A stretch of 64,000 bases of DNA from Bacteroidia bacterium (GTDB taxonomy: Bacteria > Bacteroidota > Bacteroidia > UBA4408). This document shows positions 51,647 through 56,047 of the stretch, in pieces. Location: assembly GCA_020845635.1 (NCBI GenBank), contig JADLFI010000003.1, positions 124,001 through 188,000 of the forward strand, given 5' to 3'. Position numbers and translations under genes: made by a program. Under the pieces are notes generated by a model. The model searched no databases. It was not told where the DNA came from and was given only the letters and a program-made list of their open reading frames with translations. Every line of letters begins with the position of its first letter. The first letter of the stretch is position 1.

Positions 51647-53344
51647 TTATACGGTATGCTTACGATTAAATACTAACCACTGTAACAATAAAGCCACAAC
51701 TATTAATACAATACAACCTAAAACATTTAACCATAAGAAAGCAGTTAAGTCTAATTTCCATGCTGCAATGATAAAGACCTCGGCTATACAAGCTGCCACA
51801 AACACTGCATTAGATTGTACCTTTTTAAAGTAAAAAGCCACTAAAAAAATTCCTAAAATAGTTCCATAAAATAAGCTGCCCAAAATATTTACAGCTTCTA
51901 TTAAATTGCCTAATTTACTTGCATATAAAGCCACCACTACGCAAAAAATACCCCAAAAGGCAGTAGCCCAACGTGAGGCGCTCAAATAATTAACATCATT
52001 ATTCTCTTTCTTTATTAATCGCTTGTATATGTCAACCACAAATGTTCCGGCCAATGAGTTTAAACCGCTTGCTGTGGAACCCATTGATGCTAAAAATATT
52101 ATCGCCATAATTAGCCCTACCATACCTACAGGCAAGTAACTGATTACAAAAGTTAGAAACACATAGTTAGAATCATTAGTATCTGCTTTAGCATCATTTT
52201 TTTTCATGATGTCGGTGGCTTCTTTACGGCAATTGAGAAGTTTTGATTCGGCTTGTTGCAAGGCTAGTTTGCTATCGGCAATTTTAGAATCATCTCCACT
52301 GTGCAGGGCATTGACATAATTTTCAAGATATTTCTGCTTTTGATTATGCAAAAGGTTATAGTCTTTGTTTAATTGTTCGTATTGACTACTCCACTCACTG
52401 TTTTCAATCTTTTTTGTTTCGTTTGAATTAAAAAATAAAGGAGGTTGGTGAAACTGATAAAAAGCAAACACCATGATGCCTATCATTAAAATAAAAAATT
52501 GCATGGGAATTTTCACCAAACCATTCATAACCAATCCCAATCGGCTTTGTGTAATGGAACTACCTGTAAGGTAACGTCCTACCTGTGACTGATCGGTACC
52601 AAAATAAGAAAGTTGAAGAAAAAAACCTCCTATTATACCCGACCATAAATTATAGCGATTATTCCAATCGAATTTTGTATCAATAATATTCATTTTTCCC
52701 ATACTGCCCGCAATATGTAAAGAATCAATAAAACCAACTCCCTGCGGCAATTTATAAACTACCAAAGCAGCCGCTATAATCAAACCCGAAAAAATAATAA
52801 TCATTTGAAAAAGCTGTGTATGCGAGACGGCCTTTGTACCCCCTGAAATAGTGTAAACTATAACTATGCCTCCCATTAAAATAGTGGTATAAGTAATATC
52901 AATATTCAGAATGGTGCTTAATACAATAGATGGGGCATATATGGTTATTCCGGTAGATAAACCTCTTTGCAACAAAAACAGGAAAGCAGTTAAAGTACGG
53001 GTTTTTAAATCAAATCTTTTTTCGAGGTATTCGTAGGCAGTGTAAACATTAAGTTTATGGAAGGCCGGAATAAAAGTAATACACAAAACCACCATAGCCA
53101 AAGGTAAACCAAAATAAAACTGAACGAAACGCATACCATCGCTAAAAGCCTGTCCGGGAGCCGAAATAAAGGTAATTGCACTGGCCTGTGTAGCCATTAC
53201 CGAAAAGCCTACATGATACCAAGGCAGTTGCTTGTTAGCCAAAAGATAACCTTCCAGGTTCTTGGTGCCCCGGCTCTTGTATATGCCATATACGGCTATA
53301 AACAAAAGTGTAAGCAATAATACTATCCAGTCGGTTATACTCAT
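51647..53344 (-). CDS. Sodium:solute symporter (SSS family)
   Basis: A 565-residue inner-membrane transporter with about 13 helices. The family pattern is clear: GYLLANKQLPWYHVGFSVMA near the N-terminus, AITFISAPGQAF in the sodium-site region, TISGGTKAVSHTQLFQM (about 165-181) and SMGSTASGLNSLAGTFVVDIYK (about 420-440). Residues about 303-390 form a long hydrophilic, Lys/Glu/Gln-rich coiled-coil-like insertion between helices, unusual in length for the family. The ATG overlaps the stop of a 33-residue membrane microprotein (ATGA at 53344-53341), and PIG-L lies just upstream, so substrate is perhaps an amino-sugar or related solute; that is inference. Confidence 0.9.
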   Translation of the reverse strand: MSITDWIVLLLTLLFIAVYGIYKSRGTKNLEGYLLANKQLPWYHVGFSVMATQASAITFISAPGQAFSDGMRFVQFYFGLPLAMVVLCITFIPAFHKLNVYTAYEYLEKRFDLKTRTLTAFLFLLQRGLSTGITIYAPSIVLSTILNIDITYTTILMGGIVIVYTISGGTKAVSHTQLFQMIIIFSGLIIAAALVVYKLPQGVGFIDSLHIAGSMGKMNIIDTKFDWNNRYNLWSGIIGGFFLQLSYFGTDQSQVGRYLTGSSITQSRLGLVMNGLVKIPMQFFILMIGIMVFAFYQFHQPPLFFNSNETKKIENSEWSSQYEQLNKDYNLLHNQKQKYLENYVNALHSGDDSKIADSKLALQQAESKLLNCRKEATDIMKKNDAKADTNDSNYVFLTFVISYLPVGMVGLIMAIIFLASMGSTASGLNSLAGTFVVDIYKRLIKKENNDVNYLSASRWATAFWGIFCVVVALYASKLGNLIEAVNILGSLFYGTILGIFLVAFYFKKVQSNAVFVAACIAEVFIIAAWKLDLTAFLWLNVLGCIVLIVVALLLQWLVFNRKHTV

Positions 53345-53442
53345 TTAAAATATTGGGTTAGAAAAGAAAAAAACAATATCAAAATGAGTAAAAATAAAAT
53401 AACCAAGGTATAAACGATATTCCAGTTTTTAAGAAACTTCAC
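53341..53442 (-). CDS. Predicted 33-residue single-pass membrane microprotein
   Basis: A short ORF not normally called: GTG at 53442, stop TGA at 53341, encoding 33 residues. The protein begins VKFLKNWNIV (Met in practice) and carries one hydrophobic helix (about 9-28: VYTLVILFLLILILFF) ended by SFLTQYFK. Basic N-terminus plus helix suggests an N-in single-pass inner-membrane peptide. It starts 3 nt after the PIG-L stop, and its stop overlaps the symporter ATG in an ATGA junction, exactly filling the gap between two genes. That packing argues for translation; translation is otherwise unproven. By analogy, several sodium symporters have small membrane partners, but this one matches none I know. 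Confidence 0.6.
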   Translation of the reverse strand: MKFLKNWNIVYTLVILFLLILILFFSFLTQYFK

Positions 53443-53445
53443 GGT

Positions 53446-55926
53446 CTATTTATTTTTGGGTATGTTCAGCAAATTACTGAATAAACGGTAAGCTCCGGGA
53501 ATTCCGGCAGGTAATTCTCTAAAAAATACCAATCCGGTATAAACAAAATTACCTTTCCCGTAAGGGCTCACAATTAAACTACCTTGGTGTGGACTTTCGT
53601 TAGTATCGGCTATGCTTAATAATGGTTGGTAATAACTATCCATTTCGGTGGCAAAGTAAATACCCCTTTCCTGAATCCAATCATCAAAGTCTTTGTTGCT
53701 TATTTTATTAGGCGTATTAAAAACAGGGTGGTTAGGTTGTAAAATATTTACTACAGCATTCTCATCGGTAACCCTATCGCGACTAATAGTAAAAGGATAT
53801 GGTCCTATAACCGCCTTTACAGGCCCTATACGGTTATTAGTGTTGTATTGTACCACCAAATTTCCGCCTTGCTTGATATACTCCATTAGTTTAGGATGAT
53901 AAACCTGAAGACGTTCATTAATGTTATATGCCCTTATTCCGGTAAGAATTGCATTATATTGAGATAAGTCGTCATGCTCAATCATATTATCGCTAAGCTC
54001 AGTAACCTTGTAACCTACTTGTCTTAAACATGCCGAAACTTCGTCTCCTGCCCCATTAATATAACCGATATTATTTCCTTTAATATTAATATTAAGTCCA
54101 ATGAGTTTAACCTCGGCATTGCTTAACACAAACTGTGACGGTATATGATCGTAATCAACTCTATTTATACTCTTGTCAAAAGTTCTATCATCAGCCTTAA
54201 TCAATGCTCTCAGCATAGTACTGCTTTCGGTTGATTGTGGAGTAACCTTTATTTTAACGACCTGTTCATCACCCTTTTTTTCTATTTTTATTTGCTTATC
54301 ATATTTTAAATCAAACCCCGGAGCATCAAGTATTAGCTCTCCCTCAAAGTTTTGTTTGTTGGCTTTCACCACCACATCAATAAAACCTGATTGTTTGTTT
54401 GGATAGACATAAACTTTTTCGGTAAAGTTAATGGTTACCGGAGGTAAGATTTCAAATGGGCGATATATTTCACCTTTTACAGGATCGGTAAATTTATACA
54501 CCAAAGGTCGTGTAATTTCAAGCTCCTCACTACCTATTTGAATATAATAAACAACATTTATAGCTGGGTTATTCTCTGCCTGTCCAATCATCAATTTATC
54601 GGCTACCTCAAAGCGCCCATTTCCATGTTCCCGATCAAGCCAGTAAGGATTAGAATACAAGCATCCTGAATCTAATGTTAATTTATGCGTTAGTGAAAAA
54701 CTTTTATTCCAATCCAATCTCTTTACAACAATCGTATCAACCCTGTTTGTATATGATATCTTGTTGACTTGTATATTTACAGGTGAACGACTCACAGCTT
54801 CAGTTTTAATGATTATATCGCCCCCGGGAACAGCCATATAATCATTAGCCGTATTTTCTATCCACAAGCCCGAACAATCAATAATTATAGACTCAATTTC
54901 TTTTATTTTAATCTTTTTCCAATGAACTGCCATATCATCATCAAAGGGCAAATCATTTATTTTATTTCTAATATTTAAAAGTGCCGGAAGGCTTTCGTAT
55001 GGTTTTTCTAGATTAAAGCTGTTGATGCACTGGTTGATTAAAGTATAAATTTCACTTCCGCCTTTAACTCTATGCCACGAAACATTAATATTCTCAAGTA
55101 AATGCTGCTTACACGAGTCGCCTTGAATTCTTTTAAAATACTCCATTATTTCGCCTCTTTGTTTTGCCGAGCCAAAACCCTGACTCTTGTGCATACTCCT
55201 GCTTTCAGCTGCCAACTCGCCATAACTTTTTCCCAACAAATTGTTATAAACACCTACATCAAAATGCAGTTGACTTTCGGCAGTAGTATTGGTTGTGCCA
55301 AAATTAAAGGTATTCCAGAAAATACTTTTGGCTTGCCAAGCAGGAACATACTTAGTCTGCCAGCTAAACATCATAGGGTTTGCAGCTGCGCTGAAGGCTT
55401 CGAAAGCTAAAATAGCACTAGCTGTATGATGCCCATGTCCGCCTTCGCCAGTAGTAGGAAAACGGCATACAATAATATCGGGTTTAAAATTTCTAATGAC
55501 CCAAACCACATCACTTAATATACTATCATGATTCCAGAAAGAGAAGGTTTCTTCCGGAGTTTTTGAATAACCAAAATCATAGGCTCTTGAAAAATACTGT
55601 TCGGCACCATCAACCCTGCGTGCTGCCAATAACTCCTGAGTGCGTATAAGCCCAAGCATTTCGCCCTGCTCCTTCCCAATTAAATTTTGACCACCATCTC
55701 CGCGAGTTAAACTTAAATATCCGGTACGCACTTTAGCCTCTTTACTAAGGTATGATAAAAGACGGGTGTTTTCATCATCGGGGTGTGCGGCAATGTATAA
55801 TACAGAACCAACAGTATTAAGCTTTTGTAGCGACAACATAATTTCAGCACTACTTCTACTAATTGGTTGTGCAAAATTTATTGAAGAATAAATCAGCAAA
55901 AGAATAAATCCTGTCAACTTTTTCAT
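53446..55926 (-). CDS. PIG-L family deacetylase, large multidomain, exported
   Basis: An 826-residue exported protein. The reading frame extends to a TTG at 55932, but MKKLTGF at 55926 begins a clean signal peptide (cleaved near FAQ, residue 20), so I start there. The PIG-L/LmbE zinc hydrolase domain (about 28-290) has AHPDDE (H48, D50, D51) and the downstream metal motif GHGHH (H164-H167). The remaining 500 residues contain beta-sandwich segments and a C-terminal domain with GNLVVQYNTN and SPYGKGNFVYTGLVFFREL, like glutamine-amidotransferase-type folds in related large PIG-L proteins. PIG-L enzymes remove N-acetyl groups from sugars such as GlcNAc. It heads an operon with the microprotein and the symporter. 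Confidence 0.87.
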   Translation of the reverse strand: MKKLTGFILLLIYSSINFAQPISRSSAEIMLSLQKLNTVGSVLYIAAHPDDENTRLLSYLSKEAKVRTGYLSLTRGDGGQNLIGKEQGEMLGLIRTQELLAARRVDGAEQYFSRAYDFGYSKTPEETFSFWNHDSILSDVVWVIRNFKPDIIVCRFPTTGEGGHGHHTASAILAFEAFSAAANPMMFSWQTKYVPAWQAKSIFWNTFNFGTTNTTAESQLHFDVGVYNNLLGKSYGELAAESRSMHKSQGFGSAKQRGEIMEYFKRIQGDSCKQHLLENINVSWHRVKGGSEIYTLINQCINSFNLEKPYESLPALLNIRNKINDLPFDDDMAVHWKKIKIKEIESIIIDCSGLWIENTANDYMAVPGGDIIIKTEAVSRSPVNIQVNKISYTNRVDTIVVKRLDWNKSFSLTHKLTLDSGCLYSNPYWLDREHGNGRFEVADKLMIGQAENNPAINVVYYIQIGSEELEITRPLVYKFTDPVKGEIYRPFEILPPVTINFTEKVYVYPNKQSGFIDVVVKANKQNFEGELILDAPGFDLKYDKQIKIEKKGDEQVVKIKVTPQSTESSTMLRALIKADDRTFDKSINRVDYDHIPSQFVLSNAEVKLIGLNINIKGNNIGYINGAGDEVSACLRQVGYKVTELSDNMIEHDDLSQYNAILTGIRAYNINERLQVYHPKLMEYIKQGGNLVVQYNTNNRIGPVKAVIGPYPFTISRDRVTDENAVVNILQPNHPVFNTPNKISNKDFDDWIQERGIYFATEMDSYYQPLLSIADTNESPHQGSLIVSPYGKGNFVYTGLVFFRELPAGIPGAYRLFSNLLNIPKNK

Positions 55927-56047
55927 AAACAATCTAAAAATTAATTATTTCAATAAAAATAGTAAAGATAAAGGTTTTCAGAGAATAGTCGGATTTAGAT
56001 AAAAAGCATATTTCAATAATTCAGAGCAATAAAAACTACTGAATCAA

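Follow-up and report, generated by a model that had tools for sequence, protein, structure and literature searches.

A conserved one-helix membrane microprotein encoded directly upstream of a sodium:solute symporter in Bacteroidia, a probable accessory subunit of the transporter

Between the genes of a PIG-L deacetylase and a sodium:solute symporter (SSS), a Bacteroidia genome holds a gap that is filled by a very short open reading frame (ORF), and the question is whether this ORF is a gene and, if so, which of its two neighbors the product serves. The locus was studied within a 64,000-nucleotide stretch of DNA (the window), for which a first-pass annotation had described a GTG-started ORF that fills the gap, begins 3 nt past the PIG-L stop, and overlaps the symporter start as ATGA. 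Direct reading bore out each of these points. On the minus strand, PIG-L ends with TAG at 53448-53446, followed by ACC and then by the GTG of the microprotein ORF, which runs from 53442 to 53341 (GTG to TGA) and encodes MKFLKNWNIVYTLVILFLLILILFFSFLTQYFK (33 aa); its TGA and the ATG of the 565-aa SSS gene (53344-51647) overlap as ATGA. The coordinates given at the time, 53341-53442, were right, and the strand, which had been omitted, is minus; translated on the plus strand, the same segment contains many stops. The features considered here are the following.

53341..53442, minus strand: microprotein gene, 33 aa, single helix, GTG start, TGA stop within the ATGA shared with the SSS ATG (homologs and dN/dS)
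51647..53344, minus strand: sodium:solute symporter, 565 aa, TIGR00813, SiaT/SGLT fold, the gene accompanying the microprotein (domain and fold matches)
52166..52444, minus strand: symporter insert of ~93 residues, aa 301-393, at TM7/TM8 (alignment to 5nv9 and model helices)
53446..55932, minus strand: PIG-L (LmbE) deacetylase, 828 aa, with a signal-like N-terminus and an uncertain start codon (upstream gene, same operon in the window)

A search with the PIG-L protein in 60 related genomes yielded 29 carriers, and wherever an SSS gene comes next in these, the gap is almost always occupied by a similar ORF. The check proposed by the first-pass annotation, a search of PIG-L/SSS gaps in other Bacteroidota, recovered a one-helix ORF in nearly all cases. 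In the alignment of 21 homologs, a Tyr is invariant and a Trp and a Leu are near-invariant, and the window GTG corresponds to ATG in relatives of the same genus. In some homologs the microprotein start also overlaps the PIG-L stop as ATGA, so that the three genes are translationally chained there. A profile built from the 21 members was searched over 295 genomes of the class, and ~140 match regions were retrieved and their neighbors mapped. Most Bacteroidia with the same symporter have one microprotein copy per genome, and in 123 genomes of the class the SSS ortholog lies at most 200 nt downstream of it. The two genes overlap by 4 nt (-4) in 87 of these 123 loci; where the overlap is absent, the spacing reaches 190 nt and the peptide is still kept. 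Weak profile matches without an SSS gene turned out to be pieces of longer or unrelated reading frames.

As an independent test, 80 loci from named genomes were chosen through the SSS alignment alone and not through the microprotein; 78 of them have the microprotein directly upstream of SSS. Carriers include Pedobacter, Sphingobacterium, Mucilaginibacter, Dyadobacter, Chitinophaga, Pontibacter, and Emticicia, as well as metagenome-assembled genomes labelled Ignavibacteria and Thermoanaerobaculia. Among the 16 matches read in other classes of the phylum, 15 adjoin SSS and the remaining one (L349) adjoins PIG-L with no clear SSS.

Over 32 pairs, with a few sequences used twice, the microprotein has a dN/dS of 0.205 in its own frame, versus 0.98 and 1.69 in the other two frames of the same aligned DNA. 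In the same comparison the symporter has a value of 0.063; thus, the amino acids of the microprotein matter, but they are less strictly constrained than those of the symporter. Homologous ORFs at the same place in more than 100 genomes, together with purifying selection in the proper frame only, are beyond chance and confirm the ORF at 53341-53442 of the minus strand as a real gene. Two observations had been named in advance as speaking against the first-pass proposal, namely, a gap sequence without selection on the amino acids and homologous gene pairs without a conserved ORF. Selection is present; the second observation was made at some loci, e.g., those of genus f9/g13, discussed below.

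The homologs, with a median length of 38 aa, share a polar N-terminus, often with the motif EKPPxFKxW, followed by a single helix. The conserved profile positions 12, 16, 19, 23, 27, 30, 34, and 37 (W, Y, V/L, L, I, F, T, F), which are W7, Y11, V14, L18, I22, F25, T29, and F32 in the window, lie on one helix face. The periodicity of conservation has its maximum at 100 degrees per residue (p ~5e-5, column permutation), and it persists in the helix interior alone (p = 0.002). One-face conservation of this kind is the pattern of a helix packed on a protein. Charges are mainly N-terminal. The positive-inside rule and the basic N-terminus of the window's own copy suggest an N-in, C-out topology with a short C-terminus outside; across the family, acidic and basic residues are equally frequent in the N-terminus.

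As to the neighbors, the microprotein had been described as locked between PIG-L and SSS, which holds for the window but not generally, as it also accompanies SSS in genomes that lack PIG-L or have it at another place. The partner gene belongs to the SSS family by both domain and fold, with an SSF domain (PF00474) at 118 bits against a cut-off of 22.8, a TIGR00813 score of 225.7 bits against a cut-off of 184, and the fold described below. Its orthologs are sharply separated from paralogs (43-80% versus ~25% identity) and occur in 151 of the 295 class genomes, and the long PIG-L occurs in 159. The microprotein is present in ~133 of 152 genomes with the SSS ortholog (profile matches plus five divergent copies found by eye or by a weak score) and has no credible copy in the 143 others, a contrast that is uncorrected for phylogeny, so that its p-value is not a true probability. 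None of 16 SSS paralogs (~25% identity) has the microprotein upstream.

A different reading would assign the microprotein to the exported PIG-L, as its partner or its anchor in the membrane, with the position before SSS a mere matter of operon order. In 91 of the 123 microprotein-SSS loci, PIG-L does indeed lie a short way upstream (within 60 nt in 77), almost all genomes with the SSS ortholog also have PIG-L, and three genomes (G112, G201, and G207) keep the microprotein beside PIG-L although the SSS gene has moved to a different contig. However, in the other 32 loci PIG-L is distant or lacking within 3 kb and the microprotein is still beside SSS. The assignment to PIG-L is further weakened by seven genomes of family f84, which have the microprotein and SSS with no long PIG-L ortholog and at most short PIG-L paralogs, and by eight genomes with PIG-L and no SSS ortholog, in which the profile search gave no microprotein match. 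The microprotein follows the symporter, not PIG-L, and we consider the anchor reading unlikely. It is also conceivable, if highly improbable, that the ORF acts as a leader whose translation opens the SSS start while the peptide itself is idle. Leader ORFs of similar size exist, and the frequent ATGA overlap would suit such a role, but the selection on the amino acids and the conserved W/Y/T stripe would not be expected of an idle peptide, which moreover is kept at loci without the overlap and in two of the genomes with SSS on another contig (G112 and G201).

A further reading is a regulator that would direct the symporter to proteolysis or adjust its activity, in the manner of MgtR, MgtS, and AcrZ. 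These three are controlled separately from their targets, whereas constitutive co-translation with the target is what would be expected of a subunit, and a regulatory role therefore seems rather doubtful to us. Known small membrane proteins do act in this way (PMC10710835). We favor as probable the reading in which the microprotein is a stabilizing accessory subunit, co-translated with the SSS symporter directly downstream, which in turn would import a product of PIG-L. The first-pass annotation had suggested an accessory peptide, a proposal that is now well supported by position, by selection, by the restriction to this SSS ortholog, and by the lack of a Pfam or NCBIfam family; physical binding is what we infer.

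Not every genome with the symporter requires the microprotein. Nine directly read genomes of genus f9/g13 (L231, L233, L235, L237, L238, L243, L245, L248, and L249) have kept PIG-L and the SSS ortholog and have no microprotein upstream of SSS, which is a natural loss, and about seven further genomes also have the SSS ortholog without it. At two loci, L232 (G017) and L030, a 460-nt PIG-L/SSS gap contains, in place of the microprotein, broken pieces of another ORF that presumably resembles a four-helix-bundle (S23-type) protein. Three genomes of family f2 (L257, L258, and L259) carry a second SSS copy, 43-45% identical, with no microprotein upstream.

The microprotein matches none of the families searched. 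None of the 21 members matched an NCBIfam family, and none reached E <= 1 against NF033493, a model that is in the library and has no match in the window's own genome. The Pfam scan of the same members gave only chance-level matches, with none at E <= 1 to PF13937 (which also has no match in the window's own genome) and one member at E 0.056 to an MgtS-like model. Likewise, only chance matches were found in PHROGs and, using the profile, among PDB sequences, where no MAP17 chain was matched. A literature search of incomplete coverage returned no description of the microprotein or of the PIG-L/SSS pair. An AlphaFold2 model of a read-through fusion assigned the microprotein a pLDDT of only 52-66, too low to read an interface, and the MI-APC coevolution signal over 188 microprotein-SSS pairs was dominated by variable loops.

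By both sequence and fold, the symporter groups with SiaT and SGLT/NIS/SMCT; its model superposes on SiaT 5nva with a TM score of 0.87 and also matches the SGLT2-MAP17 chains. The alignment to 5nv9 shows that, between TM7 and TM8, the symporter clade has roughly 90 inserted residues that SiaT lacks. The insert is predicted to be helical (model helices 366-388 and 398-426, in the numbering of a fused relative) and, from the topology, is probably periplasmic. We read the model as having 13 TMs (TM0-TM12) and no TM13. With regard to the substrate, the window symporter has Ser at the position of SiaT Arg135 (phmmer alignment), which we take to be a sialic-acid contact, and sialic acid is thus not implied. 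The earlier idea that a deacetylated sugar is imported is plausible. An amino sugar is weakly indicated by the signal-like N-terminus of PIG-L and by one locus that also holds NagB and another exported PIG-L. At that locus (L353:629-2303, minus strand), a short PIG-L with a signal-like N-terminus and a NagB above the TIGR00502 cut-off lie beside the microprotein-SSS unit. As NagB is near the unit in only 1 of 246 loci, this is not enough to fix the substrate.

The microprotein shows conservation beside one type of transporter and purifying selection, as one-helix transporter subunits do, and it would resemble these in function, but it is a member of none of the families tested. The closest comparison is MAP17 (PDZK1IP1), a one-span protein that is likewise paired with an SLC5/SSS-fold sodium symporter, human SGLT2, for which a role in stability and as a scaffold was proposed (PMC10803289). 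MAP17, however, is longer and eukaryotic, it was not matched by the microprotein profile among PDB sequences, and it packs on TM13 of SGLT2 (PMC10803289), the helix that appears to be missing from our symporter model. AcrZ, MgtS, and other single-helix small membrane proteins also bind transporters (PMC10710835), as the microprotein may do, but those transporters are of other families and the only sequence match is the chance-level MgtS-like one. The MetS-like small subunit (NF033493) is a one-helix peptide of ~30 aa encoded with a LeuT-fold sodium transporter; its partner, however, is of the NSS (SLC6-like) family, not an SSS protein (TIGR00813, PF00474). Some SSS symporters are encoded with DUF4212 (PF13937), likewise a small membrane protein, but its model has 79 positions, about twice the microprotein length.

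Under the subunit reading, the ORF would be translated into a one-helix inner-membrane protein with its basic or polar N-terminus inside, and the ATGA overlap would couple its translation to that of the symporter, so that both are made together. The conserved face could then pack against the outer helices of the symporter and aid its folding or stability or hold the scaffold while the moving domain rotates, similar to what was proposed for MAP17 and SGLT2. The symporter would probably import a product of the exported deacetylase.

Between PIG-L and the microprotein, five loci (L310, L317, L284, L078, and L066) and ~26 more carry an additional small ORF, 46-67 aa long, which is found mainly in Sphingobacteriaceae and Chitinophagaceae and is absent from the window. 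Its product is predicted to be a glycine-rich hairpin of two helices (e.g., GLLLGITIKRVQVGLVIGIALGLL), and a scan of four members gave no Pfam or NCBIfam family at cut-off. More broadly, the microprotein might be an unnamed one-helix subunit found throughout the phylum, a bacterial counterpart of MAP17, which in these two families joins the second microprotein in a heteromeric complex coupled to a periplasmic deacetylase, a view that we put forward tentatively and as somewhat short of probable.

SSS symporters are usually regarded as one-protein machines. If the subunit reading is true, many heterologous assays of these transporters would miss a subunit, a protein family now skipped by annotation would be named, and bacteria would offer a model for the support of SGLT2 by MAP17.
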